Shown: positions 1 to 18,164 of the stretch, in pieces
Layout of the letters: each line of letters begins with the position of its first letter
Position numbering within the stretch: the first letter of the stretch is position 1
Notes under the pieces: generated by a model
What the model was told of the DNA's origin: nothing
Databases searched by the model: none
The model's input: only the letters and a program-made list of their open reading frames with translations
Source of the DNA: Hyphomicrobiales bacterium
GTDB taxonomy: Bacteria; Pseudomonadota; Alphaproteobacteria; Rhizobiales; HXMU1428-3
Reading direction: 5' to 3'
Assembly: GCA_021775385.1 (NCBI GenBank)
Contig: JAJFHW010000009.1
Location: 1 to 18,164, forward strand
Length of the DNA: 18,164 bases
Program-made: the position numbers and the translations under genes

Positions 1-2242
1 CATTGCGCCGCCAACTCCGCCCTATTTAAATGGGCTGAATGAGGAACAAGCAGATGCCGTCCTCACAACAGACGGCCCCGTTTTAGTGCTTGCAGGCGCC
101 GGTACTGGCAAAACACGCGTTCTCACCACCCGCATCGGTCATATCCTGGCCACCGGCAAAGCTCGGCCCAATGAAATTCTCGCCGTAACCTTCACAAACA
201 AAGCTACCAGAGAAATGAAAAACCGCATCGGCGCGATGATCGGCGGCATGGTTGAAGGCATGCCATGGCTTGGCACGTTCCACTCAATCGGTGTGAAAAT
301 CCTCCGCAGACACGCCGAAATGGCAGACCTCAAATCCAACTTCACCATTCTGGATAGCGATGACAGCCTGCGCCTGATGAAACAACTCATCAAAGCTGAA
401 AACATAGATGAAAAACGCTGGCCCCCTCGCCGCCTTGCTACCATCATTGACGGCTGGAAAAACCGCGGGCTCACACCAGAAAAAGTCCCCTCAAATGAGC
501 GCGGCCTCTTCGCTGATGGGCGCGGCCTCAGCCTTTATGCCGCCTATCAAAAACGTTTGAAAGAACTCAATGCCGTTGACTTCGGCGATCTCTTATTAGA
601 GATGAACAAACTCCTCGCAGACAACCCAGACATCTTAAAAGAATATCACCGCCGCTTTAAATATATTTTGGTCGACGAATATCAAGATACCAACGTTGCA
701 CAATATATGTGGCTCCGCCTCATCGCCCAAGGGACAGGCAACATCTGCTGCGTTGGCGACGATGACCAAGCCATTTACGGCTGGCGCGGCGCTGAAGTGG
801 ATAACATCCTTCGTTTTGAGAAAGATTTCCCCGGCGCCAAAACCATCCGCCTAGAGCGCAATTATAGATCAACCGGCCACATCCTCGCGGCCGCCTCTGG
901 CCTCATTGCCCACAATGAAGACCGCTTGGGCAAAACATTGCACACAGAAGATGGCCTCGGCGATCAAGTCACCCTCAAAGGTGTGTGGGATGATGCCGAA
1001 GAAGCCCGCTCCATTGGAGATGAAATCGAAAGCTTACAAACAAAACAACATCCCTTAAACGAGATCGCCATTCTCGTCCGCGCCTCCTTTCAAATGCGCG
1101 CCTTTGAAGATCGCTTCGTCACCTTAGGGCTACCATACCGCGTCATAGGCGGCCCGCGCTTTTATGAACGGCTAGAGATTAAAGACGCCTGCGCTTACTT
1201 TGATGTAGTCTTGAACCCGGCTAATGATCTCAAATTCGAGCGCATCATCAACACACCAAAACGCGGCCTCGCCAAAGCAACACTAGAAGTCCTCCATCAT
1301 CACGCACGGTCCAGAGGCATCTCGCTGTTTGAATCAGCAATGGAAATCGTCGACACAGAAGAACTCCGCCCCAAACCACGCGGCTCCTTGCGCGCACTTA
1401 TCGAGCGCTTTGGGAACTGGCGCTCGCTTGTAGAAGCCACACCGCACACAGAACTCGCCGAGCAAATCTTAGATGACAGCGGCTACACAGAGATGTGGCA
1501 AAAAGATAAAAGCCCACAAGCCCAAACCAGACTGGAAAACTTAAAAGAACTTATTCGTTATATGGGTGAATTTGAAAACCTGGCTGGCTTTATGGAACAC
1601 GTCTCGCTTGTCATGGATGCCGACGCAAACAATGACGGCGACCGAGTAAACCTAATGACATTACACGCCGCAAAAGGCCTTGAGTTCGACACTGTCTTTC
1701 TTCCCGGATGGGAAGAAGGCCTGTTCCCCCACCAACGCTCACTCGACGAAGAAGGCAAATCAGGCCTCGAAGAAGAGCGCCGCTTAGGCTATGTCGGTAT
1801 AACGCGGGCCAAGAAAAAATCACACATCAGCTTCACCCAAAACCGCCGCATCCACGGCTCCTGGGTCACCCAGCCACCATCGCGCTTCATTGATGAGCTG
1901 CCCGAAAAAAACATTGAAGTGATTGAACAAATGGGTAATTTCGGCGGCTATGCAACCTCACGCTTTGAAAACATGCCCCAAAATTATGAGCGCACCCCAA
2001 GCGGAAATGCTAATGCTGGAAAAAACTACAACCGAAAATCAGCTAGTAATTTCACCAAAACGATCGACGCAAAAGTCATCGCTAAGAAAACAGTGACGAC
2101 AGATTATGAAGTTGGCGAGCGCATCTTCCACCAAAAATTCGGCTATGGTGAAATCACAAACATCAACGGCGACACCCTGGACATAGACTTCGAAAAAGCC
2201 AGCCCGAAAAAAGTGAAGGCCAGCTTTGTCGAACGTCATTGA
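1..2242 (+). CDS. uvrD: ATP-dependent DNA helicase UvrD/PcrA (5' partial)
   Basis: Superfamily 1A 3'-5' DNA helicase for nucleotide excision and mismatch repair and for clearing DNA-bound obstacles; cytoplasmic. The frame is open to the left edge (first whole codon at 2), so the start lies outside the window and the GTG at 86 is internal, within the coding sequence LVLAGAGTGKT. Motifs in order: Q-motif region LNEEQ (about 35-50), Walker A GAGTGKT (98-115), motif Ia TFTNKA, Walker B/motif II DEYQDTN (674-694), motif III GDDDQAIYGWRGA, motif IV LERNYRS, motif V LMTLHAAKGLEFD, and motif VI GYVGITRAKK near 1790-1815. The last ~45 residues (VGERIFHQKFGYGEI onward) form the Tudor-like C-terminal domain that binds RNA polymerase in PcrA/UvrD. 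At least 746 residues are present, so only a short N-terminal piece is missing. The 3' end is partly duplicated at 2904-2948. It converges with the next gene, 33 bp away. PcrA and UvrD cannot be told apart here. Confidence 0.96.
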   Translation, partial: IAPPTPPYLNGLNEEQADAVLTTDGPVLVLAGAGTGKTRVLTTRIGHILATGKARPNEILAVTFTNKATREMKNRIGAMIGGMVEGMPWLGTFHSIGVKILRRHAEMADLKSNFTILDSDDSLRLMKQLIKAENIDEKRWPPRRLATIIDGWKNRGLTPEKVPSNERGLFADGRGLSLYAAYQKRLKELNAVDFGDLLLEMNKLLADNPDILKEYHRRFKYILVDEYQDTNVAQYMWLRLIAQGTGNICCVGDDDQAIYGWRGAEVDNILRFEKDFPGAKTIRLERNYRSTGHILAAASGLIAHNEDRLGKTLHTEDGLGDQVTLKGVWDDAEEARSIGDEIESLQTKQHPLNEIAILVRASFQMRAFEDRFVTLGLPYRVIGGPRFYERLEIKDACAYFDVVLNPANDLKFERIINTPKRGLAKATLEVLHHHARSRGISLFESAMEIVDTEELRPKPRGSLRALIERFGNWRSLVEATPHTELAEQILDDSGYTEMWQKDKSPQAQTRLENLKELIRYMGEFENLAGFMEHVSLVMDADANNDGDRVNLMTLHAAKGLEFDTVFLPGWEEGLFPHQRSLDEEGKSGLEEERRLGYVGITRAKKKSHISFTQNRRIHGSWVTQPPSRFIDELPEKNIEVIEQMGNFGGYATSRFENMPQNYERTPSGNANAGKNYNRKSASNFTKTIDAKVIAKKTVTTDYEVGERIFHQKFGYGEITNINGDTLDIDFEKASPKKVKASFVERH

Positions 2243-2275
2243 TATAAAGAAGTGATATTGACTATGGCAGAGGCT

Positions 2276-2737
2276 TTAAAATAGCTGACCAATTTTTTTA
2301 ATTTCAGCAATCCCCTTATCAGCCTGAGCTTTGCTCACTAATCTACCTTCAAATTGCCCAAACCCTGACGGTTTCATATAAATATACTGAGTATGTCCGG
2401 GCTTAAACGCCATAGAAGATAAATGACCACCACCATGACCTGACAAAATACTGCTTGAAAAATGAGATGCCCAGTACCCAGAAGGAACGTTAAAAGTCTT
2501 ATAGCTACAAGTCTGCATAGAACCTATTTTTTTACCATTAACAACATATGTCATCGTGACGCGATTCATAGTCGTCTTAATAAGGTGATCCATAGGAACA
2601 CAAAACCCATAAACAACAACTGTGGTTCTACCACCTTGTAACTTAGCAATCATCTCCGCTGATCGCTGTTTTGTTGTCAAACAACCAGCAAGACCAATAA
2701 CAGACACAAGAAGCACAAATATAATACGATACAACAT
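2276..2737 (-). CDS. Small predicted lipoprotein, function unknown
   Basis: I do not recognise the family with confidence. The start chosen is the ATG at 2737, because GGGGGA sits 5 nt upstream on the minus strand and the protein then begins MLYRIIFVLLVSVIGLAGC, a type II signal peptide with lipobox LAGC. The frame also opens upstream at 2785, but that would add an odd N-terminal extension without a clear ribosome-binding site. The mature part of about 135 residues has a beta-rich look. It includes TTVVVYGFCVP, VVNGKKIGSMQTCSYKTFNVPSG and a Gly/His patch SGHGGGH. A bacterial lipoprotein domain of the DUF2846 type has similar spacing (VxVxxxxVNGxxxGxL, then YxxxxxxxG), but this is a weak guess. 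The gene lies tail-to-tail with uvrD and inside the segment bounded by the two copies of the uvrD 3' end, so it may be acquired. Confidence 0.7.
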   Translation of the reverse strand: MLYRIIFVLLVSVIGLAGCLTTKQRSAEMIAKLQGGRTTVVVYGFCVPMDHLIKTTMNRVTMTYVVNGKKIGSMQTCSYKTFNVPSGYWASHFSSSILSGHGGGHLSSMAFKPGHTQYIYMKPSGFGQFEGRLVSKAQADKGIAEIKKIGQLF

Positions 2738-2889
2738 ACAATTCCCCCAATAAACAGAACAAAAAACTGCCAGCCAATACTGCAATAGTCAAGCAATTCA
2801 AAAACATAAATGTTAACAAAATTTCATCGTTGCTGAAGAACAACATTGCATGAAATATTCAGGACGATATAGTAAGAAGTACAATTGCA

Positions 2890-2976
2890 GTGCCACCAAA
2901 AAACATAAACGGCCACACCCTAGACATAAACATCGAAAAAGCCAGCCCCAGAATTGAAATATTTAAATTTAACTGA
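2890..2976 (+). pseudogene. Degenerate duplicate of the uvrD 3' end
   Basis: Bases 2904-2948 match 2161-2205, inside the last codons of uvrD, at 40 of 45 positions without gaps (743 bp apart, same orientation). The reading frame is preserved: the copy reads NINGHTLDINIEKASP against NINGDTLDIDFEKASP in the helicase. It then diverges and ends at TGA 2974-2976. The frame can be followed back to a GTG at 2890, but there is no helicase domain, so this is a remnant and not a gene. It may be a relic of tandem duplication, or the distal flank of an element that inserted at the end of uvrD and restored it. AGTGCCACC at 2889-2897 also occurs in the repeat at 4046-4054, possibly by chance. Confidence 0.75.
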
Positions 2977-3908
2977 TGGAAAAATTCATTATGATTAGGT
3001 CTATATTGGGTTTTATGTTGCTATTAATTATTGTTTTAAGCTTCTATTTATTGCTTTCTCTCAAAATACAAAATCTAATCAAATTCGACATCTCGATATT
3101 TTTTATTTTATTATTTATCACAACACATTTCTATCCAAAGATAGAAACAAAGTTAGTAAATGTATCTTACTGGAAAGAGCATTCTTTGCTTCTAACTCCT
3201 TTAATTTTACTCCCCGCTATTGTTTTATTTATTGAAATGACCTACATCCGTGGCGGCTTTATCTCCAGCAAACCATTTTGGGAATATTTCATTTCTCAAA
3301 ACATCAGTAACGCTGAAAAATTCATTCTAGATAACCATGCAAGTGAATGCGTGTACTTTGCATTGCTCTTTTCTTCTTGTTTTTATCTTTATGCAAAAGT
3401 TACAAAAAAAGGAGGCTTAATCAATGTGATTCTTGTGAATGAGAAACAACAACAAAAATCAATTTTTTTCGCTGTAATGGGCTTGTTAATATCTTCAGTC
3501 GTAATTTTCTACGTGATTAATTATGCAGAGATTAATTCACATATTTCCTCTAACTATTCTAGAGCACTCGAAGTGCTTTTTGTTGCCTTTTCATCGTTTA
3601 TTGCAACCACTTTATTTACAGCACACAAACAAAGAAAAATGTCACTTACAGAAAGATTTATTTTTATTTTCACACCTTTAATTCCACTAGCTTTAATAAG
3701 TTTTGAAATGAACCTTTTAATAAAAACACTCCAACATAATAGTTTTTCATTTTCCAATTATCCAACCTACCATCTAGAGCTATGGAACCAATTACTAACG
3801 CTCCCATTTTTAAAGAATGTTATGATTTATATTAGCTTATTAGCTGGGAGCATTGCTTTAATTACAAGTTTCAATGAAACTTTAAAGACTAAAATTATTA
3901 AAGTTTGA
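2976..3908 (+). CDS. Polytopic inner-membrane protein, unknown family
   Basis: No family recognised. The 310-residue product has about eight hydrophobic segments (near residues 6-28, 36-55, 68-90, 121-140, 161-184, 196-215, 226-245 and 275-298). These are linked by short polar loops with no visible catalytic motif, nucleotide-binding motif or large soluble domain. The first ATG (2976) overlaps the TGA of the uvrD remnant as TGATG and has no Shine-Dalgarno. The ATG at 2991 has GGAAAA about 8 nt upstream and gives MIRSILGFMLLLIIVL, so it may be the real start. The gene is clearly more AT-rich than uvrD on the left or the DUF3754 gene on the right, with many TTA, ATT and AAA codons, which suggests horizontal acquisition. 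It stands alone: the next gene on the strand is 400 bp away across a structured repeat. Confidence 0.7.
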   Translation: MEKFIMIRSILGFMLLLIIVLSFYLLLSLKIQNLIKFDISIFFILLFITTHFYPKIETKLVNVSYWKEHSLLLTPLILLPAIVLFIEMTYIRGGFISSKPFWEYFISQNISNAEKFILDNHASECVYFALLFSSCFYLYAKVTKKGGLINVILVNEKQQQKSIFFAVMGLLISSVVIFYVINYAEINSHISSNYSRALEVLFVAFSSFIATTLFTAHKQRKMSLTERFIFIFTPLIPLALISFEMNLLIKTLQHNSFSFSNYPTYHLELWNQLLTLPFLKNVMIYISLLAGSIALITSFNETLKTKIIKV

Positions 3909-3973
3909 GTCTTTTAGTCATACTTATTTCTTGACTTCTTAAATATAAAAAATAAGAAAACAAAATCCTCAAT

Positions 3974-4081
3974 CCTAAGAGGGAGTATTACCCATTTTCG
4001 GGTAAAGGGACATGATGCCAGCTCAAGTGTAGGTCCGTAACCTCAAGTGCCACCCCAAAAAAAACAATAGCCCTTGAGAGG
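3974..4081 (+). repeat. Structured intergenic repeat, copy 1 (degenerate)
   Basis: This is the most diverged copy of the family seen at 5797, 7010 and 10185. The shared skeleton is CCTAAGAGGGAG (3974-3985), then a hairpin with stem TTACCC/GGGTAA (3988-3993 with 4000-4005). This is followed by GGGACATG (4007-4014) and, near the end, CAATAGCCCTTGAGAGG (4065-4081). Inside it are a small stem AGGT/ACCT (4031-4034 with 4040-4043) and two copies of CTCAAGTG (4022-4029 and 4042-4049). CTCAAG in either copy can pair with CTTGAG at 4073-4078. The outer closing stem of the better copies is lost. It lies more than 200 bp upstream of the next start codon. Confidence 0.7.
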
Positions 4082-4310
4082 CAAAAAAATCACGCTCCTC
4101 TCTTTATTCCTCAAATTAACCCTATCCTCTGCTAGATTAATTGCACTGCTTGCGCCAAAAAGTTATAAACAAGGCTTAATTTACAATAAAATTATGTAAT
4201 GTTTGTTATGCGTTTTTCGCTATATTTTCAAAAAATTCAGCAATATAGTTATATTTAAAGATGAAGGCCTAAAGCGTTTTTAAAGGCAGCTAAATAAGCG
4301 GAGTAGAGTA
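4082..4310. other. AT-rich leader region before the DUF3754 gene
   Basis: No open frame of note and no convincing sigma-70 promoter that I would place with confidence. Many TTTA, TATA and ATTT runs between 4130 and 4260 fit a promoter-bearing region for the gene starting at 4311. The ribosome-binding site GGAG at 4300-4303, 7 nt before the ATG, fixes that start. Confidence 0.4.
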
Positions 4311-5768
4311 ATGAGTAATGGGGACGTAGCTTTAGGGACTGACCACCCGTCAGCGCATCAGGAGCATAAAGCAAAAGGTTTTAAGCGCTTTTATAATCTC
4401 TTTCGCCCCTCCAGTGCAGACGCCCGTAATAAAGAACGCACAGACAGAACAGCACCTAAAAAAATCGTCAAAGAAGGCCTCACCGCCATTGACGGCCCAG
4501 AAAAAGAGCGCTTCATCCCCGTCTCTCGCCAAGCAATTTTAGACTATCTAAACAGACCAGAAGTCTGGGCAGAAGGCGAGCATAGCGACGCTGCAACTTT
4601 CATAGACCATCTGGATGCCTGGCGTCATCAATCTTATCGCTCCCGTCTCTCGGTTTTAAAAAGTTCATACCTAACTTTCAGCCCCGATAGAGACACAGTG
4701 AAATCCCTTGAGTTCACACCCATCCAACTCCTCAAAATGCGCCATAACCTAATGGAACATTTAGGAGACCTGTTAGAGTCAGCCAATTATGAAAAAGTAA
4801 CTCAAAAAGATCTCGACCTTCTCCTTACATCGGACAGCCCCTATGGCTTGCGGCTTCATGTGGACTTGGATGCATTTGATGATGTGGTGATTTATTTCAG
4901 AGGCGCCGGCACAAAAATTGTCGAATATCGCGACTGGAAATGGGCCTACCTGAAAAAGAAAGGCGTAGAGACGCCAATCTTCCAACGTCTCTTTATAGCC
5001 TTAAAATTAAAGCCTGAAGAAGAGATGATCAACCACCTCATGATGAGGGAAGAACTCACCCATAAAAAAGCAGCAAAACTAGTTCAGAAAAATCGCAAAA
5101 TGATGCCAGACGGCGTGACCAGCGATAATATCTATTTAAAGCTATTTAAAAACATCCCTCAAGACGACCTCGAGATGATGTTCCCAAACACAAAAGTCGA
5201 ATTCAAACTCCTCGACAAATTAAAAATTGGCCTAACCGCAGGCGGTGGTACCATTGCTGGCTTAGCGACCGCAATTCCAAAATTAATCCTCGGCCTTACA
5301 GCCGCCGCTTTAAACCCTATATTCCTATTAACCTCTCTTGCCGGCATCATTGGCCTACTTGTGCGCCAGGTTACAAAAGTCTTCCACCAGCGCAACGAAT
5401 ATATGATGACCCTCGCGCAAAACCTATATTTCCACAATCTTGCCAACAACCGAGGCGTGCTCACACTACTGGTCGATCGAGCTGAAGAAGAAGACATCAA
5501 AGAAGAGTTGCTGCTTTATAATTATCTGGTGAGAAATAAAGACAAAGGCACAAACCTAAGCACAGCCAAAGCTGATATTGAGCAATTCCTACAAATGGAA
5601 TTCGGCGTTGATATCAGCTTCGACCTTGAAGATGGCTTCTCTCGCCTGGTTCGTGATGGATTGGTTGAAAAAACTGCAGATGGCAGCTATAAAGTGTTAC
5701 CACCCAAACGCGCCTCAGCTCAAATAAAGAGATTATGGCGCGGCGTCTTAGAACCCGTTGCACGTTAA
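4311..5768 (+). CDS. DUF3754 (TMEM143-like) family membrane protein
   Basis: The protein belongs to the family defined by DUF3754, whose eukaryotic relatives are the TMEM143 mitochondrial proteins; its biochemical role is unknown. The family signature is visible as IYLKLFKNIPQDDLEMMFP (residues 274-292), followed by a basic hinge and two adjacent hydrophobic segments (about 306-330 and 334-352), then RNEYMMTLAQNLYFHNLANNRG (361-382). Upstream is the block GLRLHVDLDAFDDVVIYFRG (179-198), also typical. The N-terminal ~65 residues are polar and low in conservation signals, and the C-terminal part (about 395-485) resembles a small winged-helix-like fold ending in a basic tail. The start is supported by GGAG 7 nt upstream. 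Length (485) is normal for the bacterial family. It is separated from prmA by a structured repeat, so joint transcription is possible but not shown. Confidence 0.85.
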   Translation: MSNGDVALGTDHPSAHQEHKAKGFKRFYNLFRPSSADARNKERTDRTAPKKIVKEGLTAIDGPEKERFIPVSRQAILDYLNRPEVWAEGEHSDAATFIDHLDAWRHQSYRSRLSVLKSSYLTFSPDRDTVKSLEFTPIQLLKMRHNLMEHLGDLLESANYEKVTQKDLDLLLTSDSPYGLRLHVDLDAFDDVVIYFRGAGTKIVEYRDWKWAYLKKKGVETPIFQRLFIALKLKPEEEMINHLMMREELTHKKAAKLVQKNRKMMPDGVTSDNIYLKLFKNIPQDDLEMMFPNTKVEFKLLDKLKIGLTAGGGTIAGLATAIPKLILGLTAAALNPIFLLTSLAGIIGLLVRQVTKVFHQRNEYMMTLAQNLYFHNLANNRGVLTLLVDRAEEEDIKEELLLYNYLVRNKDKGTNLSTAKADIEQFLQMEFGVDISFDLEDGFSRLVRDGLVEKTADGSYKVLPPKRASAQIKRLWRGVLEPVAR

Positions 5769-5796
5769 TGAATTCATATAAACCACCAGCCCATTC

Positions 5797-6015
5797 TTTA
5801 CGAAGAAGGAGTGACGCTTTTTCAGCGTCAGGACATGGCGAAGCGACAGCGAAGCCCGTCGCATAAGATCAGCCCGAACGGAGCGTAGCAAGTACGGATA
5901 AGCTGATCGAAAAAATGCGACGCACCTCGTAGGGCCTGCCGCTTCAGCAGCGCGGATGCTTTGTGGGCATCTAAAGCGCAACTAAAAAGCAATAGCCCGT
6001 GAGAGAATTAAAGAG
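5797..6015 (+). repeat. Structured intergenic repeat, copy 2 (longest, composite)
   Basis: It begins TTTACGAAGAAGGAG (5797-5811). The outer stem TACGA/TCGTA pairs 5799-5803 with 5927-5931. Hairpin P2 is TGACGCT/AGCGTCA (5812-5818 with 5824-5830, loop TTTTC). Then comes GGACATGGCGAAGCG (5831-5845). Hairpin P4 has stem GTCGCAT/ATGCGAC (5858-5864 with 5915-5921) and encloses a further stem GATCAGC/GCTGATC (5867-5873 with 5902-5908). A distal module holds GCGGATGCTTTGTGGGCATC (5952-5971), itself containing the stem GATGC/GCATC, and it recurs at 13781-13800. The repeat closes with CAATAGCCCGTGAGAGAATT (5990-6009) followed by AAAGAG, which serves as the ribosome-binding site of prmA at 6021. The family is unnamed as far as I can tell. 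Confidence 0.85.
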
Positions 6016-6020
6016 CCCAA

Positions 6021-6926
6021 ATGACCGACACACAACTTTATCAACTCACCATCCGCGCTGAAAAATCAATCAATGCCGGAATAGCAGATCTATTGGAAAA
6101 CATATTTCCAGAACCACTGTCTGTTAGTCATTTTGAGGAAAATGAGAAAGAGAATAAGTGGACCACCACAGCTCATTACGAAGAAAAACCTGATCAAGAA
6201 AATATAACAGAGCAAATCTCAAACATCCTCAATATCTCAGCTGAGAGTTATAAAGTTGAAGTCTCAAAAGTTGAGAATATCGATTGGGTCTCTCATGTTC
6301 AAAAAGGCCTCAAGCCCGTTAGAGCAGGTCGTTTCTTTATCCATGGCAGCCATGACAGTGACAAAGCAGAAGATAAATCCTATTCCATCCTCATAGACGC
6401 AGCACAAGCTTTTGGCACCGCCCATCACGGCACAACAGAAGGCTGCCTCAGAGCAATTAGTGAACTAAGCGAAACTCACAAACCAAAAAAAATTCTCGAT
6501 CTTGGCGCAGGCTCAGGCATCCTCGCCATCGCTGCCTCAATGGTCTTTAAAGAAGCTAAAATTATCGCAAGTGACATAGATCCCATTTCAGTAAAAGTCG
6601 CCAAAACAAATGATGACCTCAACCGCCCAGAAAATTCTAACAACGCAAAAATCACCCACATTTGTGGTGATGCTCTAAATGATAAAAACATACAAGAAAC
6701 AGCCCCTTTTGAGCTTCTCATTGCAAATATTTTAGCCAAACCACTCATAGCAATGGCACCAGATATCACAAACGCAGTTGCTACAGATGGCACGCTTCTT
6801 TTATCTGGGATCCTAGATGTCCAATCAGATGATGTAATCGAAGCTTATGTGGCTCAAGGGCTAACACATTTAAAAACAGATTTAATAGGGGAATGGACAA
6901 CAAGTCTGTTCCACAAAAAAGGATAA
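6021..6926 (+). CDS. prmA: Ribosomal protein L11 methyltransferase
   Basis: SAM-dependent enzyme that trimethylates lysines and the N-terminus of ribosomal protein L11; cytoplasmic. The PrmA layout is visible: an N-terminal L11-recognition domain (about 1-65), a linker helix, then the class I methyltransferase domain. Key motifs are FGTAHHGTT (131-139), which is the PrmA form of the substrate loop, the SAM-binding ILDLGAGSG (158-166), the acidic SDID (184-187) that contacts the ribose, and IANILAKPL (234-242), the NIL-type catalytic motif. Length (301) is normal for the family. The start ATG follows AAGAG with 5 nt spacing, and that sequence is the conserved end of structured repeat copy 2. 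The gene precedes pepP, an order I know from Rhizobiales genomes; the two are separated by another repeat copy. Confidence 0.95.
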   Translation: MTDTQLYQLTIRAEKSINAGIADLLENIFPEPLSVSHFEENEKENKWTTTAHYEEKPDQENITEQISNILNISAESYKVEVSKVENIDWVSHVQKGLKPVRAGRFFIHGSHDSDKAEDKSYSILIDAAQAFGTAHHGTTEGCLRAISELSETHKPKKILDLGAGSGILAIAASMVFKEAKIIASDIDPISVKVAKTNDDLNRPENSNNAKITHICGDALNDKNIQETAPFELLIANILAKPLIAMAPDITNAVATDGTLLLSGILDVQSDDVIEAYVAQGLTHLKTDLIGEWTTSLFHKKG

Positions 6927-7009
6927 TGTGTTTTATCTTTTTAATTGTTGTTTATAAAAATAGGTTGCCAAAGCAAGAAAAGTTATTGGTGCAATAAAGT
7001 AAAAACGCA

Positions 7010-7140
7010 CCTTACGAAGAAGGAGCATTGCCCACTTCGGGCAATGGGACATGGCGAAGCGCCAGCGCAGCCCGGCGTTTAACGCCGCACCTCGTAAGCC
7101 CACCGCCTTAGCGGTGGAATAGCCGTGAGAGAAATAAAGA
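7010..7140 (+). repeat. Structured intergenic repeat, copy 3 (most compact)
   Basis: This is the clearest copy. Outer stem P1 CTTACGA/TCGTAAG pairs 7011-7017 with 7092-7098. P2 CATTGCCC/GGGCAATG pairs 7026-7033 with 7039-7046, loop ACTTC. GGGACATGG follows (7046-7054). P3 TGGCG/CGCCA pairs 7052-7056 with 7060-7064. P4 GGCGT/ACGCC pairs 7074-7078 with 7082-7086, loop TTA. P5 CCACCGC/GCGGTGG pairs 7100-7106 with 7111-7117, loop CTTA. It ends AATAGCCGTGAGAGA (7118-7132) and AATAAAGAG, where the GAGAG that follows is the ribosome-binding site of pepP (ATG 7150). The flanks of P2 and P4 are identical to copy 2 while the stems differ in sequence and still pair, which is covariation. Confidence 0.88.
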
Positions 7141-7149
7141 GAGAAAAAA

Positions 7150-8985
7150 ATGTTCCAATCATATGAAAATCGCGGCGGACCAGAACATTGTGCAGAGCGC
7201 ATCAAAGCCTTAAGAGACGTTTTAAGAAAACAAAAGATTGACGGCTTCATACTTCCTCGCAGCGACAAGCATCTCAACGAATATGTCGCGCCCCATGATG
7301 AGCGCCTCTTATGGCTCACTGGCTTTTCAGGCTCTGCCGGCCAAGCCATCATTCTGCAAAATAAAGCCGCCATTTTCATTGATGGAAGATACACCCTTCA
7401 AGTACAAAGCGAAGTCGATCTTGAATTAATCACACCAGTTCCAATCACCGATCAACTCCCAAGCAAATGGTTGGGCAAACTAATTAAACGCGGCCAAACC
7501 ATCGCAATTGACCCAACACTCCATAGCGTAAAATCTTATGAAACTTTTCTTAATGTGGTTGAAAAGGCTGGCGCAACACTTCTCTCTGTGCAGAAAAACC
7601 CCGTGGATGAGGTTTGGCAAGATCAGCCATCCGTGCCTGAAAACCCTGTTATCTCACACCCTAAAAAATATGCTGGACAAGATCCATCTGAAAAAATAGA
7701 GCTTATACAGGCAAAGCTAAAAGAAAAAAAATGCGAAGCTTTTGTCATCACAGCACCAGAATCTATTTGCTGGTTATTCAACATCCGTGGCAACGACATC
7801 AGCCACACGCCCATCATGCTTGCAAATGCGATAATCCACTCTAAAGCCAAACCTGAAATATTCTTAAAAGCTGATCGTCTAAACTCAAGGTCTTTAGAAA
7901 CAATTCGCGCAAACGCAAAACTACTCCCCCCTGAACAATTTGAAGATCGGTTAAATTCCCTTGGTGCTAAATTTAAAAAAGTACTCATTGACCCAACAAG
8001 AACCAACAGTGCAATTTATCAAACCCTACGTTCAGCCAGAGCAGAAATCATTCGTGGCGAAGATCCTTGTTCCCTGCCCAAAGCAAAAAAGAACAAGGCA
8101 GAAATTGAAGGAAGCCGCCAGGCTCACATTCGTGATGGGTTAGCTGTAACAAAATTTCTTCATTGGTTATCAGAAAACTCTACGAATAGTAGCTTAGACG
8201 AAATCAACAGCGCCAAAGCTTTAGAGAATTTCCGCATCGATACAGGCGCGCTAAAAGACATCAGTTTCGAGACAATCTCGGGAGCCGGCCCCAATGGAGC
8301 GATTGTTCATTACAGAGTGAGCGAGCAAACAAACCGACGCTTAAATATGGGTGATCTTTACTTGGTAGATTCAGGCGCCCAATATCAAGACGGCACAACA
8401 GACATCACCCGCACAATAGCAATTGATGCACCAACAACAAAACCAACCGGCCCCATGCGCCGGCACTACACACTTGTTCTGAAAGCCCACATTAATTTAG
8501 CAACAGCTTATTTTCCGAAAGGGACGCGGGGCTGCGACCTAGACCCCCTAGTAAGAGCACCCCTCTGGCAAGCTGGCCTTGATTTTGCCCACGGCACTGG
8601 GCACGGCGTTGGGAGTTTCTTATCCGTTCATGAAGGGCCCCAAGGCATCTCAAGAAGAGCCACAGTTCCACTAGAACCAGGAATGATCCTATCAAACGAA
8701 CCAGGCTATTACCGCGAAGGCGCATACGGCATCAGGTTAGAAAACCTAATATTAGTAAAAGAACCAGAAGACATCACAGGCGGTGAACAACCTATGATGC
8801 ATTTTGAAACCTTAACTTTGGCTCCATTTGATCGTCATTTAATTGACTGTAAATTGCTCAGCAAAAACGAACTCAAATGGCTAAACAATTACCACAAAGC
8901 CGTCTACAAAACGCTGTCACCCGAACTCAAAGGGCCCGTGAAAGCATGGCTTAAATCTTCCACCAGCACAATAAAGCCAGAATAA
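7150..8985 (+). CDS. pepP: Xaa-Pro aminopeptidase, three-domain M24B type
   Basis: Metallo-aminopeptidase that removes an N-terminal residue preceding proline; probably cytoplasmic, as no signal peptide is seen. The 611-residue length and layout match the eukaryotic-type APP1/XPNPEP1 group. An N-terminal creatinase-like domain (about 15-145, with DKHLNEYVAPHDERLLWLTG and FSGSAG) is followed by a second creatinase-like domain (about 175-320), the catalytic pita-bread domain (about 330-545), and a short C-terminal extension. The dinuclear metal ligands are all present: D407 and D418 (VDSGAQYQDGTTDITRT), H485 (HGTGHGVGSF), E517 (NEPGYY) and E531 (GIRLEN). H387, H481 and H494 fit the substrate-binding and catalytic histidines of the family. 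The start follows AAAGAGAG from the repeat. The FAD monooxygenase gene begins 44 bp downstream, so co-transcription is likely. Confidence 0.95.
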   Translation: MFQSYENRGGPEHCAERIKALRDVLRKQKIDGFILPRSDKHLNEYVAPHDERLLWLTGFSGSAGQAIILQNKAAIFIDGRYTLQVQSEVDLELITPVPITDQLPSKWLGKLIKRGQTIAIDPTLHSVKSYETFLNVVEKAGATLLSVQKNPVDEVWQDQPSVPENPVISHPKKYAGQDPSEKIELIQAKLKEKKCEAFVITAPESICWLFNIRGNDISHTPIMLANAIIHSKAKPEIFLKADRLNSRSLETIRANAKLLPPEQFEDRLNSLGAKFKKVLIDPTRTNSAIYQTLRSARAEIIRGEDPCSLPKAKKNKAEIEGSRQAHIRDGLAVTKFLHWLSENSTNSSLDEINSAKALENFRIDTGALKDISFETISGAGPNGAIVHYRVSEQTNRRLNMGDLYLVDSGAQYQDGTTDITRTIAIDAPTTKPTGPMRRHYTLVLKAHINLATAYFPKGTRGCDLDPLVRAPLWQAGLDFAHGTGHGVGSFLSVHEGPQGISRRATVPLEPGMILSNEPGYYREGAYGIRLENLILVKEPEDITGGEQPMMHFETLTLAPFDRHLIDCKLLSKNELKWLNNYHKAVYKTLSPELKGPVKAWLKSSTSTIKPE

Positions 8986-9029
8986 TAAGATAGTCAAAAT
9001 AATTTTCCTTCAACCTGAGGAATGGCACA

Positions 9030-10139
9030 ATGTCTGATAAACCAATTGCAAATCTCATAATAGGTGCAGGCCCGGTTGGTTTAACGGCTGCGCTGGAATT
9101 AAACCGTCGCGGCTTACCTTTTAAAATTATCGATAATGATGGTGAGCCCACCCCAGAAAGTCGAGCCCTTGCAATAAACGCACGCACTCTCGAAATTCTG
9201 GAAAGCTCTGGTGTCTCAGAAAAATTAATTGAGGCCGGCAATAAAGTTGAAAAAATCACAGTAAGAAATCAACAGCAGACTTTATTAAATGTCGATATCA
9301 CTCAAAGCCCACACAAATATAATTTCCTTCTAGTTCTCCCTCAATCTCAAACAGAAACAATTTTAATTGAAGCGTTAAAAGAGCAAAGTCAAAATGTAGA
9401 ATGGTACACATCTCTCAAATCCATAACTCCCATGGATAATCTTTTTAAATGCAATCTCGAAACCAATGATGAACTTAAAACCATCTCGGCAAAAAACTTA
9501 ATCGGAGCAGATGGTGCCCATTCAACAGTACGCAAAACTTTAGATTTCTCATTCGATGGTGAAAGCATTCCAGATATTTGGAGCTTGGCTGATGTAGAAA
9601 TCAGTGAATGGCCATATCCCTTTAATAATGCAGTCGTGACCTTAACTGAGGTAGGCCCTATAGCTTTTTTCCCCTTCGGCGAAGGAAAGGGACGTTTAGT
9701 CTCATCAAAACCAGACATACTCAATAATTTACCGAGTGGTATGAAAGTTTCAAAATCCACATGGCAATCTGAATTCAAAATAAGTTATCGTCAGGTCGCA
9801 TCTTATCAAAAAGGCAACGCTTTTCTTGCTGGTGACGCCGCCCACATCCATTCACCAGCAGGTGGACGAGGAATGAATATGGGAATAGAAGATGCTGCAA
9901 CTCTCGCCTATTTAATAGAGAAAAACCAAACGGAGAGATATACCGACTTACGCCACCCAGTTGGTGAAAAAATCCTAAACTTCACCAGACAACAAACAGA
10001 ACGTATCACATCCCCAGGCATGGGCTTAAGCATAGCAATCAAATACTTAGCACCCCTAGCATTCTCAATCCCACCAATTAGAAACAAAGCACTTAAAACT
10101 CTAATCGGCTTAGACACACCTAAACCCGAATGGCTCTAG
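9030..10139 (+). CDS. FAD-dependent aromatic-ring monooxygenase (PHBH/UbiH-like)
   Basis: Flavoprotein hydroxylase of the p-hydroxybenzoate hydroxylase fold (FAD_binding_3 family). It would use NAD(P)H and O2 to hydroxylate a phenolic or related substrate. Evidence is the Rossmann ADP-binding GAGPVG (residues 12-17), a DG motif IGADGAHSTVRKTL (158-171), and the second FAD motif FLAGDAAHIHSPAGGRGMN (265-283) followed by GIEDA. Length is 369 residues, shorter than the phenol hydroxylase/PheA subgroup, and no thioredoxin-like C-terminal domain is present. The start is supported by GAGGAA ending 7 nt upstream. Substrate cannot be read from the sequence; ubiquinone-ring hydroxylation and aromatic catabolism are both possible. 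Its stop codon TAG (10137-10139) lies inside the left arm of an inverted repeat at 10135-10148. It follows pepP by 44 bp, probably in one transcript. Confidence 0.88.
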   Translation: MSDKPIANLIIGAGPVGLTAALELNRRGLPFKIIDNDGEPTPESRALAINARTLEILESSGVSEKLIEAGNKVEKITVRNQQQTLLNVDITQSPHKYNFLLVLPQSQTETILIEALKEQSQNVEWYTSLKSITPMDNLFKCNLETNDELKTISAKNLIGADGAHSTVRKTLDFSFDGESIPDIWSLADVEISEWPYPFNNAVVTLTEVGPIAFFPFGEGKGRLVSSKPDILNNLPSGMKVSKSTWQSEFKISYRQVASYQKGNAFLAGDAAHIHSPAGGRGMNMGIEDAATLAYLIEKNQTERYTDLRHPVGEKILNFTRQQTERITSPGMGLSIAIKYLAPLAFSIPPIRNKALKTLIGLDTPKPEWL

Positions 10140-10351
10140 AGCATGTCACATAGTATTGAATTCATTAAAATGATTTTCAAGTATCTTAACGAAGAAGGGA
10201 GTGCTCTTTTCCAGAGCATGAACATGGCAGCGCATGCTGCCCCGTGCCTAGCACCGCCCCGTCGGAGGCCCAAACGCCATAATCGTTTGGAATAGCCGTG
10301 AGACAAAACAAAACATGTCTTTAAATTGAATACAAAATGACATGCTCTAGA
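10135..10351. repeat. Perfect 14-bp inverted repeat enclosing repeat copy 4
   Basis: TCTAGAGCATGTCA at 10135-10148 is the exact reverse complement of TGACATGCTCTAGA at 10338-10351. Weaker complementarity continues inward (GTATTGAATT near 10153 against AATTGAATAC near 10324). The arms overlap the stop codon of the monooxygenase and end 9 bp before the ligA stop, so they lie at the junction of two convergent genes. The AGAGCAT...ATGCTCT form recalls the palindromic intergenic repeats common in Rhizobiales genomes, which is from memory and not checked. It may be terminal inverted repeats, or an old palindrome split by insertion of repeat copy 4. Confidence 0.8.
10185..10305 (+). repeat. Structured intergenic repeat, copy 4
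   Basis: Skeleton: CTTAACGAAGAAGGGAG (10185-10201), P2 GTGCTCT/AGAGCAT (10201-10207 with 10213-10219, loop TTTCC, first pair G-T), ACATGG (10222-10227), and P3 GGCAGC/GCTGCC (10226-10231 with 10236-10241). P4 GTGC/GCAC (10244-10247 with 10251-10254, loop CTA) follows, then P5 CCAAACG/CGTTTGG (10270-10276 with 10284-10290) and the end AATAGCCGTGAGACA (10291-10305). All stems differ in sequence from copies 2 and 3 yet fold the same way. The outer stem P1 is reduced to about three pairs. It lies between convergent 3' ends, not before a start codon, which argues against a purely 5'-leader role for the family. Confidence 0.82.
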
Positions 10352-10360
10352 AAGTTCAAG

Positions 10361-12493
<2,133 letters not shown>

Positions 12494-12597
12494 TTAAACA
12501 CTCTAAATGGATAACAGCTTTAAAAAAATCAGCAAGAGCTTGAGAGCCCCAAGACATAAAACATATGAAGATATACAGAATTTTATTTTAGGCTTTT

Positions 12598-12640
12598 CTC
12601 AAAAAAAACCTCGTGGAATATACTGTTCCACGAGGTTCAA
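12598..12640 (-). terminator. Intrinsic terminator of bamD
   Basis: A perfect 12-bp stem, AACCTCGTGGAA (12607-12618) with TTCCACGAGGTT (12626-12637), has a 7-nt loop and on the minus strand is followed directly by a T run (A6 at 12601-12606 on the plus strand). It lies 30 bp beyond the bamD stop. On the plus strand there is no comparable T run, so it acts on the minus strand. Confidence 0.93.
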
Positions 12641-12669
12641 TTTTAAAAAATCAACAGTTGAGTATTCAA

Positions 12670-13578
12670 CTAAATTGGATTTAGTTTTTTCGCTGCGTTT
12701 AAAGTATTTTTCCACGTTTTAGACAGCCAAGAACCTGAATTGTTTCTCGGTGCCAAACCACCAGATTTCAAAAGAGCGTAAGTATCTTTATACCAAGGTG
12801 AGTTCGGGAAGTTATGCCCAAGAATAGCACCAGCTGTTTGCGCTTCAGAAGCAATACCAAGCGCCATATATGCTTCAGCAATTCTTGCTAATGCTTCTTC
12901 TACATGCTGAGTAGTTTGATAGTTTTTAATCACAGATTTAAAACGATTAATCGCTGCTAAATAATTTTTACGGGTCAAATAATAACGCCCAACATTCATA
13001 TCAGCTGCAGCCAAAACATCACGTGCTACACGGATCCGATTTTTAGCATCAGCAGCATAGCGGCTATTTGGATAACGGCGCACCAAAGTCTCTAAAGATT
13101 TAAGAGCTTCTTTCGTCCGTTTCTGATCACGTTTTGGGTCCGCAATTTGATCATAATAAGACATGGAAATCACATGCTGCGCTAGCGCGGATTCTTTTGT
13201 ACCTGGATGCAAAGCAACATAACGTTTACCACCAGAAATAGCTTCAGGGTATTTACCACCTTTATAATTAGAGTAAGCCGCCATAACAATCGAACGACGC
13301 GCCAAAGGTGAATAAGGATGAAGACGATCAACATCTTCAAACTTCTTGGCTGCATTATCAAATTTACCTGACGTCAAAAGTTGGTCAGCCTCTTTGTAAA
13401 GCTTTTCCGCAGGCTCAACTTTTTCGGCATCCTGAAATTCTTTATTCTTTCCGCCAAACCAGCCCCCTAAAGAACTAACCGAAGAGCCAACATCTGACAA
13501 AGGAGAGGATGAACACCCACCCAAACCAGCAGTAAATAAAATGACTGTAACAAAAGCAAGTCGCTTAAGCGTCAACAT
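12670..13578 (-). CDS. bamD: Outer membrane assembly lipoprotein BamD
   Basis: Periplasmic lipoprotein of the BAM complex that inserts beta-barrel proteins into the outer membrane. The N-terminus is a type II signal peptide with lipobox LGGC; C22 would be the lipidated cysteine. The mature protein carries TPR-like helical pairs: AEKLYKEADQLLTSGKFDNAAKKFEDVDRLHPYSP (about 57-91) is the canonical first repeat, followed by YPEAISGGKRYVALHPG, LETLVRRYPNSRYAADAKNR and YYLTRKNYLAAINRFKSVIKNY, as in ComL/YfiO proteins. The 302-residue length is slightly above the E. coli protein, mainly from a Ser/Gly linker after the lipobox and a C-terminal tail. The start is supported by AGGGGGA 5 nt upstream. 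It has its own terminator, and lpxC upstream also ends in a terminator, so it is probably a single-gene unit. Confidence 0.95.
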   Translation of the reverse strand: MLTLKRLAFVTVILFTAGLGGCSSSPLSDVGSSVSSLGGWFGGKNKEFQDAEKVEPAEKLYKEADQLLTSGKFDNAAKKFEDVDRLHPYSPLARRSIVMAAYSNYKGGKYPEAISGGKRYVALHPGTKESALAQHVISMSYYDQIADPKRDQKRTKEALKSLETLVRRYPNSRYAADAKNRIRVARDVLAAADMNVGRYYLTRKNYLAAINRFKSVIKNYQTTQHVEEALARIAEAYMALGIASEAQTAGAILGHNFPNSPWYKDTYALLKSGGLAPRNNSGSWLSKTWKNTLNAAKKLNPI

Positions 13579-13746
13579 AAAATCCCCCTAAAGGAAAAGA
13601 GAAAAACCAAAAATAAACAGGCAAAGGACCAATAAACCGATCAATAACAGACTTATTGCCAAAAGCCTCATAAAATATTCCCGTCAGCTAAATCCTAAAT
13701 CAGTATTTCGCACAACTAAAATCCCAGAAACTTCACAGGTTACTCT
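13579..13746. other. Gap upstream of bamD, no gene seen
   Basis: The 529-bp gap between lpxC and bamD holds this AT-rich stretch, then a structured repeat module, then about 190 bp without a supported gene, then the lpxC terminator. Because of that terminator, a bamD promoter is expected here, but I could not place one with confidence. Confidence 0.4.
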
Positions 13747-13747
13747 C

Positions 13748-13826
13748 TGCCGATTGCTAATAAGCAATCCGAAGCACTAAGCGGATGCTTTGTGGGCATC
13801 AGAAGCACAAAAAAAGCAACTTAGTG
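13748..13826 (+). repeat. Partial structured repeat sharing the distal module of copy 2
   Basis: GCGGATGCTTTGTGGGCATC at 13781-13800 is identical to 5952-5971. The similarity continues as AGAAGCACAA...AAAAAGCAA against TAAAGCGCAACTAAAAAGCAA, and CTGCCG lies upstream in both. This copy has its own hairpins: GATTGCT/AGCAATC (13752-13758 with 13763-13769, loop AATA), and CACTAAG/CTTAGTG (13775-13781 with 13820-13826) enclosing the shared 20-mer. The GAAGAAGG half and the AATAGCC end are missing, so the distal module exists as an independent unit. Confidence 0.72.
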
Positions 13827-14019
13827 TGCAAAAAAAAACTCAGCAACTGAAACACAATCAAAAATTTCCAATAACAGCTTCTCAAAAGAAGCCAAGAATG
13901 TGGAGATTCTATGCTCAATTATACGACTTTTTAGTGCAATTGCACAGATCTAGAAAAAAATATAAAGAATTACTTAACAAAGTGTCTTATTTACATGGAT
14001 CAAATGGTTGAATCACACA

Positions 14020-14050
14020 CAAAAAAAGCAAGTACAGTTTTGCACTTGCC
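14020..14050 (-). terminator. Intrinsic terminator of lpxC
   Basis: Bases 14028-14036 pair with 14041-14049 (one A-C mismatch, loop GTTT). On the minus strand the stem is followed by T7 (A7 at 14021-14027 on the plus strand). It lies 58 bp past the lpxC stop, and transcription from lpxC should end here before bamD. Confidence 0.88.
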
Positions 14051-14107
14051 TTAAAAGGTTAACAAAATCAATGATATAATCATCAAAAAAGTGTTACAAA
14101 CACTCGA

Positions 14108-15079
14108 TTAATTCCGGTCTGCCGCAAAATTAGCAGCAGAAAGAACAGCAGCCCCTTGTCTGTCCCCAACACTATGATGTTCAACAACATGAGCAGGTAC
14201 GTCAGGTACAGAAACCCTCGTCCAAGCATCTTTATCAGCTAACAAGGTCGAAATCGCCTTTGCATTCAAAGCATGGCCACCACGATAGGACTTATAAGAA
14301 CAAAGCAAAGGAGATCCAGCTAAAGCCAAATCACCAACGGCGTCTAAAGCTTTATGACGAACAAATTCATCATCCCAGCGAAGCCCTTCGCGGTTCAGAA
14401 CTTTGTCTTTATCAATAGCAACAGTATTTTCCAAAGAAGCACCAAGAGCACGTCCTGCAGCCCAAAGGCCTTCAACTTGCTCCATAAAACCAAAAGTTCG
14501 TGCTCGTGCTAATTCTTCACGAAACACACCAGGGTTCAAATCAGACTTGAACCTCTGACGACCAATAACAGGAGTTTCAAAATCAATCTCAACGTCAAGT
14601 CTAAAGCCGTTGTAAGGCAATAATTCACCCCAACAACCATTTTCTTCAACACGAATAGGCTTCAAAACTTTAATGAAGCTGCGCGGTGCATCAAGGTCTT
14701 TCAAGCCAACCTCTTCAATTGCGCGCACAAATGGCATTGCACTGCCATCCATAATAGGCACTTCACCATTATCAATTTCAACTAAAACATTATCAATTGA
14801 AAGCCCGCGAAGTGCAGACATAAGATGTTCAACAGTTGCCACAACAGCACCGCACTCAGAGCCTAGAATTGTACAGAGTGTTAAATTTTTAATGAAATCG
14901 CAATGCGCTTGAATCTCGACGTCTTTGCCGTCTTTCAATACAGAAAAGTTAATTCCGCTATCGGCATCAGCCGGATGAAGAGTGATAGAAACCGGAGCCC
15001 CTGAATGAACACCAACACCAGTCATGACAACAGATTGACTGAGCGTGGTCTGTTTCGCTCCAACATATGAATTACCCAT
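14108..15079 (-). CDS. lpxC: UDP-3-O-acyl-N-acetylglucosamine deacetylase
   Basis: Zinc-dependent deacetylase that performs the committed step of lipid A synthesis; cytoplasmic. The family fold signatures are clear: TGVGVHSGAPVSITLHPA (20-37), NLTLCTILG, VATVEHLMSAL (80-90) with catalytic base E84 and zinc ligand H85, and MDGSAMPFV. RHKALDAVGDLAL (241-253) supplies the other zinc ligands H242 and D246. GGHALN (267-272) contains H269, equivalent to the transition-state histidine of E. coli LpxC. Length is 323, slightly longer than the E. coli enzyme because of a C-terminal tail. The start is supported by GAGGG about 8 nt upstream. The position downstream of ftsZ is the usual one in proteobacteria, but here the two are 834 bp apart with a terminator between, so lpxC needs its own promoter. 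Confidence 0.97.
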   Translation of the reverse strand: MGNSYVGAKQTTLSQSVVMTGVGVHSGAPVSITLHPADADSGINFSVLKDGKDVEIQAHCDFIKNLTLCTILGSECGAVVATVEHLMSALRGLSIDNVLVEIDNGEVPIMDGSAMPFVRAIEEVGLKDLDAPRSFIKVLKPIRVEENGCWGELLPYNGFRLDVEIDFETPVIGRQRFKSDLNPGVFREELARARTFGFMEQVEGLWAAGRALGASLENTVAIDKDKVLNREGLRWDDEFVRHKALDAVGDLALAGSPLLCSYKSYRGGHALNAKAISTLLADKDAWTRVSVPDVPAHVVEHHSVGDRQGAAVLSAANFAADRN

Positions 15080-15850
15080 GAGAGTACACCCTCTAAATTA
15101 CCCTGTCTTCTCTAGACATCCAGAACGCATAGGAACTTTAAAATTCAAGTTCAGCTAGCAATTCGGAGCCCCCCATCCATAAGCCTGACTGCTGTCAAAT
15201 AATCTGATTAACAATTTGGAATAAAATTTTTACATTTTAATAATTAAAGCCCACACATCACTTTGAGCATTAATCTTCCAAACGAAATAAAAAACTTTAG
15301 TCTAAAATCTTACCAAGTTTTTTATTTAACCAGCTTATGAAACGCTAAGAGCCATGCTTATATTTTTATCACAGCCCTGAATTCCATAATCTCTCAAAAC
15401 TATAATTTTGTGAAACTTAATTCATAATTTCAAAATCATAACTAAATTTGTAAAATTCTGTAAATTGCAACTTTAACAAAGTATAATAAATACCACCAGT
15501 AACGTAGTGTAATAAACACCAACTGTGCTAAAGCGAAATGAACAAAGATACAAACTCATTTCAAGAGTTACAAACAACCAATCCTAAACTTTGAAAACAA
15601 CACGATTAATAAAATTAATCTGAAATCTTAATCTAGAACAATCAAGCCTATAGCTATCATTAAAGAAACCTTACTATAGAGAAGAATGCTCACACAAATC
15701 ACGGTTTCTTACAGTCTGTTACCAACACGTTAAGTTACTGAAAAATATCAATAAAACATAAGATTCAGCCTGTGTATTTCATAAAAACTAAGCTTTACTG
15801 ATATATTTCTGAAACAAAAATCCTCTGCAACGGTTTGATTCGCCAGAAAT
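15080..15850. other. Long AT-rich gap between ftsZ and lpxC
   Basis: No open frame worth calling on either strand. The stretch is strongly AT-rich and must contain the lpxC promoter. The only repeated motif I could resolve is an imperfect direct repeat: 15480-15500 against 15506-15526 agree at 17 of 21 positions (shape AGTxTAATAAAxACC), offset by 26 bp. ATTAAT-like motifs cluster at 15606-15635, but none fits a clean CtrA box (TTAA-N7-TTAA). Confidence 0.5.
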
Positions 15851-15883
15851 CTTACAAAAAAAGCGGAGATCAAATCCCCGCTT
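15851..15883 (-). terminator. Intrinsic terminator of ftsZ
   Basis: Bases 15861-15870 pair with 15874-15883 (stem AAGCGGAGAT against ATCCCCGCTT, one A-C mismatch, loop CAA). On the minus strand the stem is followed by a T run (A5 at 15856-15860 on the plus strand, extending the two A of the stem). It lies 31 bp beyond the ftsZ stop. Confidence 0.9.
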
Positions 15884-15913
15884 AATATATAAAAAGTTTA
15901 AATGATAAAATTC

Positions 15914-18136: not shown

Positions 18137-18164
18137 TTGTTTCCCCGCTTCATAAGGAAGCACA

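Follow-up and report, generated by a model that had tools for sequence, protein, structure and literature searches.

Interspersed four-hairpin repeats of Hyphomicrobiales with covarying stems, near-independently assorting hairpins and an orientation that follows a compositional strand marker

Do the covarying stems of a repeat found between ordinary bacterial genes reflect selection on a folded RNA, or the way in which the repeat is replicated? The question is raised by a contig of a Hyphomicrobiales bacterium (GCA_021775385.1, contig JAJFHW010000009.1, positions 1 to 18,164, forward strand), the 18,164 nucleotides of which are referred to here as the window. The genes next to the repeats encode a DUF3754 protein, PrmA, an M24 peptidase, a FAD-binding monooxygenase-like protein and LigA. 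An earlier note, made from the sequence alone, described four copies of a structured repeat (3974-4081, 5797-6015, 7010-7140 and 10185-10305) and ascribed the preserved pairing to selection on RNA or single-stranded DNA folding. A covariance model, R1, seeded with 23 clean copies, recovers all four on the + strand with 29.2-126.8 bits, the next-best match in the window scoring 9.8 bits (Table 1). The copies starting at 7001 and 10176 are part of the seed, so that their recovery is not independent; R1 omits the P3 pairs, underscores distant members and gives rough E-values. The first copy (A) does belong to the family but is degenerate, its P4 and P5 not being clear in the alignment, and the orthologous place in genome G002 holds an intact copy (L298:4867-5002). 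In the clean copy C, the stems P2, P4 and P5 described in the note are present, P5 pairing CCACCGC with GCGGTGG (7100-7106/7111-7117). Copy D is 96% identical to its counterpart at the orthologous place in G002 and is the only one with a 42-nt flanking inverted repeat, the arms of which contain AGAGCATGTC; similar flanks are present in G002, and the 13 AGAGCATG motifs in the G002 windows comprise 6 along the element direction and 7 against it. The window also carries a 53-nt direct repeat (2158-2210 / 2901-2953, 87% identical, 743 bases apart), the first copy of which lies near the end of a helicase ORF.

Table 1. Repeat copies, their hairpins and associated modules in the window
Feature	Coordinates	Strand	Evidence
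Copy A, degenerate	3961..4085	+	R1 29.2 bits; 5' block, P2 and GGGACATG retained, remainder decayed
Copy B, full element with two nested hairpin modules	5787..6010	+	R1 73.4 bits
E3 nested hairpin GATCAG..CTGATC in the P4 loop of copy B	5867..5908	+	read directly
E2 mini-element nested in P5 of copy B	5944..5991	+	R2 61.1 bits
Copy C, clean full element, interval between prmA and the M24 peptidase gene	7001..7136	+	R1 126.8 bits
P2 hairpin, copy C	7026..7046	+	CATTGCCC/GGGCAATG at 7026-7033/7039-7046; fold, alignment, covariation
P3 hairpin, copy C, GGC-GNA-GC type	7053..7072	+	sequence and alignment
P4 hairpin, copy C	7074..7086	+	GGCGT/ACGCC at 7074-7078/7082-7086
Basal helix CTC/GAG, GNA/GUGA internal loop and P5, copy C	7091..7131	+	
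Copy D, interval between the FAD monooxygenase gene and ligA (convergent)	10176..10309	+	R1 108.2 bits
Inverted-repeat arms, 42 nt, around copy D	10135-10176 / 10310-10351	.	76% complementary
Free-standing E2 mini-element	13773..13820	+	R2 50.6 bits

The main element is about 115-135 nt long and consists of four hairpins, P2-P5, with near-invariant linkers between them and an A-run at the end. Read 5' to 3', an A-rich stretch and CTATACGAAGAAGGAG are followed by P2, GGACATG, P3, CC and P4, and then by GCNCC, a basal helix enclosing a GNA/GUGA internal loop and P5, and finally GAGAGAAAAA. The most conserved part is the linkers outside the stems, and P3 comes in at least three unrelated sequence types, each able to pair. 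The borders are sharp: logos built from 241 left and 193 right ends reach background information some 25 bases ahead of CGAAGAAGG and some 10 bases past the last GTGAG. Since 19 of 41 tandem neighbours abut at these borders, spaced by 1-6 bases, the unit is well delimited. The end logos contain no conserved signal of the promoter or T-run kind. The gapped pattern CGAAGAAGG-N15-45-ACATGG has 40 matches in the genome of the window against 0 for the same pattern read backwards, and the single sequence 7000-7145 folds with z = -3.3. Taken alone, the 3' block AATAGCCNTGAGA does not reach significance: its 3 matches within the window, at most two mismatches being allowed, are equalled in 34 of 200 shuffles. 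A possible peptide read from the ATG within ACATGG was dropped after inspection by eye. On the minus strand of 7026-7046, P2 of copy C followed by CTCCTTCTTC makes a terminator-like site (1 found against 0.5 expected from shuffles).

Copy B is long because two further hairpin modules are nested in it, E3 in the P4 loop and E2 in P5. E2 is a mini-element of about 45 nt with an outer and an inner stem, both of which covary: 42 cells show double changes, and the score is 0.312, compared with 0.113 for shuffles. All 99 free E2 copies found in 788 kb of G002 have the orientation of the main element, and 24 of the 25 copies lying inside main elements run along the direction of their host copy; the reversed-sequence control in the G002 windows gives 0 matches. 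Genome-wide in G002, 43 of 45 E2 copies among the matches listed are on the majority strand, and all nine in the G004 windows agree in orientation. E2 is present in 8/8 genomes of the genus, with 4 to 112 matches (100 candidates scored), and outside the genus in 3 of 53 genomes with 1-3 matches each. It also forms short tandem arrays of five copies with 37-38-bp units (L309:2502-2697 and L317:14389-14589), and in the latter the outer stems vary between units. E3 sits in the P4 loop of other copies too (e.g. L025, L057), where by eye its direction is that of the host. In a single case (L116:6983-7201), the host copy is on the minority strand and E3 points opposite to it, as would fit a polarity set by replication.

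The repeat is abundant. The search for further copies that the earlier note called for yields at least 150 matches in its own genome (a 2.88-Mb draft, 79% complete), the weakest of them partial, and the family is found in 8/8 genomes of the genus with 23 to at least 54 matches each. Across the order, diverged members are found at E <= 1e-5 in 33 of 397 genomes, at least twice per genome in 20 of these. A draw of 385 genomes from the class, the listed rows of which include four other members of the order, returns only the own genome and three single weak matches. Pattern scans are less specific: at least 97 stretches match in genome contigs, the scattered taxa among them being taken for chance, and a short pattern matches at least 120 stretches of viral contigs, which are likewise taken for mostly chance. 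Plasmid or phage copies were rejected, as the query 6990-7150 has no match in either collection. A tRNA or tmRNA identity was also rejected.

Comparison with Rfam 15 supports the view that this is no known Rfam family. The whole window has 0 matches, and a permissive scan of 3900-10400 gives only E 0.31 and E 0.79, the former lying on the other strand across copy A with 21 of 128 bits. Among 16 distant loci, the sole gathering-level match is YrlA at L378:1361-1498, which does not overlap the element, and identity with a known Rfam RNA was therefore rejected for the window and these loci. L378 (+ strand) comes from genome G255, of another family of the order; its YrlA match (Y RNA-like, RF02553) scores 69.9 bits, a second weak match lies at 1242-1341, and both adjoin a repeat cluster, the nearest element being L378:1501-1626. 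RIME, mosaic repeats that lie between genes in rhizobia, occur in this order as well and may be comparable to the element. Searches of the open-licence literature in PubMed Central list neither this family nor a bacterial repeat combining these properties. We place the family among the known interspersed hairpin repeats, as a presumably new form of them.

The pairing claimed from four copies holds in larger sets. RNAalifold on 23 copies gives 26 pairs, 16 of which change on both sides, and the two prevailing length classes of P2 comprise 37 and 50 distinct sequences, in which each pair position shows 1-4 Watson-Crick types and is Watson-Crick in 78-98% of cases. The basal helix is CTC/GAG in most copies of the genus, GTC/GAC in some, and CGC/GCG or ATC/GAT in other families, and the GNA/GUGA internal loop is preserved across families. 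Its outer pair exceeds all of 1000 shuffles both in the genus (137/204 against at most 126) and in the distant loci (39/70 against at most 31), whereas for the second pair this holds among the distant loci (34, shuffle maximum 33) but not in the genus (130, shuffle maximum 133); the triplets parsed for these counts include misparses such as AGC/GAG. Within the main element, internal non-Watson-Crick pairs read on the + strand comprise 38 G.T and 12 A.C, an excess that favours folding of the + strand. This argument is not general, because E2 has no such excess (18 G.T against 31 A.C). Selection on RNA or single-stranded DNA folding, the conclusion originally drawn from the covariation, is plausible rather than proven, since template switching can create and repair hairpin stems and thereby yield compensatory double changes, as described in passages of PMC8794818. 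The recombination of hairpin types among copies is a second reservation.

The copies are strongly polarised within contigs. In G002, 145 of the 150 copies listed lie on the majority strand of their own contig, as do 46 of 49 in G004; in G032, a genome of another family, all 19 copies on six multi-copy contigs agree within the contig. Over 40 G002 windows, mostly picked because copies were known there (two are without copies), copies are distributed 122 to 7 by strand, and ORFs 316 on the element strand to 327 on the other. Base composition served as the strand marker, so that orientation is given relative to this marker, not to a mapped origin or terminus. A exceeds T along the element strand in 39/40 G002 windows, for 98/107 copies, and in 20/20 G004 windows, in 19 of which C also exceeds G. 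Only 54/107 copies in G002 have a negative GC skew along their own strand, and the orientation argument is therefore carried there by the AT marker; GC skew is strong on contig C1 and on parts of C2 and C4 and small elsewhere, in contrast to a consistent AT skew. In C1 and in the first 240 kb of C2, the sampled windows have GC skews of -0.11 to -0.20. The leading strand is usually richer in G and T, and by this convention the element strand would be the lagging strand. A fixed orientation with respect to replication, as in IS200/IS605, is thus found against the compositional marker. That the unrelated E2 has the same polarity points to a cause outside the individual element. Neighbours less than 400 bp apart are tandem in 41 cases, head-to-head in 12 and tail-to-tail in none, and the head-to-head partners are not near-identical (identity 0.56-0.78). 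Polarity is not universal, since in G018 22 of 42 diverged matches are arranged as 11 head-to-head inverted pairs (e.g. L262, L267, L272) rather than as polarised singles. The first 250 kb of contig C4 of G002 hold none of the 150 copies listed, and two 20-kb windows taken from this region have no element match.

Relative to genes, copies lie preferentially behind a 3' end and seldom separate divergent neighbours. We considered 107 G002 copies, namely 129 less 18 with more than half of their length inside crudely called ORFs and 4 at an edge. The flanking genes run in the direction of the copy on both sides in 41 cases, converge in 36, both run opposite in 23 and diverge in 7; the upstream-side gene accordingly reads into the element in 77/107 copies, and the element is antisense to it in 30/107.

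The hairpins assort nearly independently of each other. For the six pairs of modules among P2, P3, P4 and P5, the observed mutual information is reached by 55-688 of 1000 shuffles; P2 may be weakly linked to P4 or P3, given the lowest counts of 55 and 90, and the test covers the 136 of 265 copies that could be parsed, the module parser having failed on 129. Orthologous places were searched with R1 at all 30 BQJJ01 loci, the recognised JAEPQF loci, two JAJFHF loci, L075, L108 and L110, of which L108 gave no match. Among 43 reciprocal orthologous pairs, 7 are identical at 0.93 or above and 36 at 0.34-0.85, with flanks of 78-100%. As some of these pairs join non-corresponding members of tandem arrays or carry nested inserts, we used a stricter set of 16 pairs, in which the aligned flanks of both members approach the element to 60 bases or less at either end. 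Four of these are at 0.93 or above and 8 are at least 0.10 below their flanks (5/16 when gaps are ignored), half of the strict pairs thus being without excess divergence. L052 and L053 have identical P3 and P4 hairpins and different P2 and P5 hairpins, and L023 and L321 are identical as far as P5, which is replaced as a unit. Some sites have thus undergone hairpin replacement and others have not. The positions themselves are stable: a copy is present at the orthologous place in 110 comparisons and absent in 7, which concern 6 elements, in a sample biased to occupied sites. Copy B is one of the six, missing upstream of prmA in both G002 and G003, and the place of copy C is occupied in both genomes, but with other hairpins. 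No clean insertion with a target duplication was seen among the filled and empty sites compared, which differ over tens of bases.

A search for an enzyme that could mobilise the family gave little. The Y1 transposase domain (PF01797) is found in 1/8 genomes of the genus, in a search whose control set was positive in E. coli and Caulobacter, and reverse transcriptase (PF00078) in 2/8; stretches around these genes (L290-L293, L364, L366) contain no element. Mobilisation by either enzyme was consequently rejected as a genus-wide explanation, which sets the family apart from group II introns and retrons as well as from repeats served by a cognate Y1 enzyme. Terminal inverted repeats of the MITE kind are lacking too, both ends being A-rich on the same strand. 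Mitochondrial double-hairpin elements are small mobile hairpins able to nest in each other; they differ in being organellar and in having two hairpins, and we know of no replication polarity in them. REP/BIME/REPIN repeats with TnpA_REP (RAYT) are alike in being high-copy intergenic hairpin repeats that occur as singles, clusters and inverted pairs, according to sections of PMC6006769 and PMC3116915. A REP is, however, a palindrome of 20-40 bp (as given in part of PMC3733652) with a GT[AG]G foot (PMC6006769, same sections), whereas the unit here is 115-135 nt with four hairpins, its left end is A-rich and then CTATACGAAGAAGG, 7/8 genomes of the genus have no Y1 gene, and near-total replication polarity is combined with near-independent hairpin types. 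With IS200/IS605, the family has in common what the same sections of PMC6006769 describe, insertion tied to the lagging-strand template, as used by IS608 and ISDra2, and recognition of hairpins; it differs in that no transposase gene accompanies the element and no left/right end pair was identified. KOPS and AIMS share the orientation fixed relative to replication, but AIMS are 8-bp motifs, as passages of PMC5993296 put it, and not structured repeats.

Several explanations have to be weighed against these data. Covariation as strong as this, a GNA/GUGA loop preserved across families, the G.T excess on the element strand, an upstream-side gene that mostly reads into the copy and the rarity of divergent contexts would all suit a structured RNA element that acts in transcripts, through 3'-UTR stability, processing or attenuation, and whose pairing is kept by selection on the RNA. 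Selection on folding would also best explain the near-invariant linkers and the mostly conserved positions. Nevertheless, 30 of 107 copies are antisense to the upstream-side gene and yet keep to the replication marker in their orientation, hairpin types are exchanged by recombination, a G.T excess is missing from E2 and the ends carry neither a promoter-like nor a T-run signal, so we regard an RNA function as somewhat unlikely. The near-complete polarity in G002, G004 and G032, common to the unrelated E2, together with stable positions, could point instead to a polar chromosome signal under selection, comparable to KOPS/AIMS or to a single-strand initiation site and read by an orientation-dependent protein. 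Against such a signal speak the length of 45-135 nt on the A-rich strand, compared with the 8-bp leading-strand motifs that are AIMS in the passages of PMC5993296, the copy-free beginning of C4 and the many inverted pairs in G018; we consider it unlikely. It is less probable still that the covariation is a mere by-product of template switching at the fork, which would perfect the stems of imperfect palindromes and invert copies without any selection on folding. The creation and repair of stems described above, a strand bias of quasipalindrome mutation reported in part of PMC7202029, head-to-head pairs without tail-to-tail ones and the swap of P5 as a unit in L023/L321 are in line with it, but template switching alone does not explain why the linkers outside the stems are most conserved, and the modest likeness of head-to-head partners and the G.T excess also stand against it. 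REP/IS200 systems are characterised by palindromes between genes, by inverted pairs and by a single-strand transposition linked to the lagging strand (sections of PMC6006769), which might suggest a REP/BIME-type repeat mobilised by RAYT, the enzyme having been lost or lying in the missing part of the assembly. With PF01797 in a single genus genome despite positive controls, no element around the four Y1 genes found and a four-hairpin unit of this length, this idea, already weakened, is very improbable.

The explanation that we prefer, with a probability of about 40%, is a non-autonomous hairpin repeat whose copies are placed, and in part rewritten, by a process that is strand-specific and coupled to replication. 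The hairpins would act as DNA that is single-stranded at the fork, where copies and replacement hairpins would arise either through a single-strand recombinase or through ectopic template switching between like-oriented copies, and the preserved pairing may follow from this fork process, perhaps together with selection on folding. A replication-coupled process explains the polarity of two unrelated families, the occurrence of head-to-head without tail-to-tail pairs and the unit-wise differences of hairpins. Its present activity need not be high, because most positions are common to related species. The mobilising enzyme, if one exists, is hypothetical; none is assigned because Y1 and reverse transcriptase genes are not general in the genus and have no element near them. 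The lack of such an enzyme and of a clean target duplication, the stable positions, the inverted pairs of G018, the half of the strict pairs without excess divergence and the mixed GC skew of G002 all count against a replication-coupled repeat. A rather unlikely variant, which would make the family a new class of structured DNA repeat, dispenses with a dedicated enzyme: combinatorial hairpin elements would be spread by the replication of the host itself, via strand-specific ectopic template switching, the hairpins being the recombining units, each copy keeping the orientation of the strand on which it was made, and the smaller E2 and E3 landing in loops of the larger element. A categorically new mechanism is possible but unproven.

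Base-pair covariation is normally taken as strong evidence of RNA function. Here, textbook covariation, replication polarity and modularity come together in one repeat, which makes it a natural test of whether replication events at hairpins generate covariation. The family also links interspersed repeats with fork polarity in genomes where the customary enzymes are mostly missing. Searches for noncoding RNAs that rely on covariation could be led astray by repeats of this kind.
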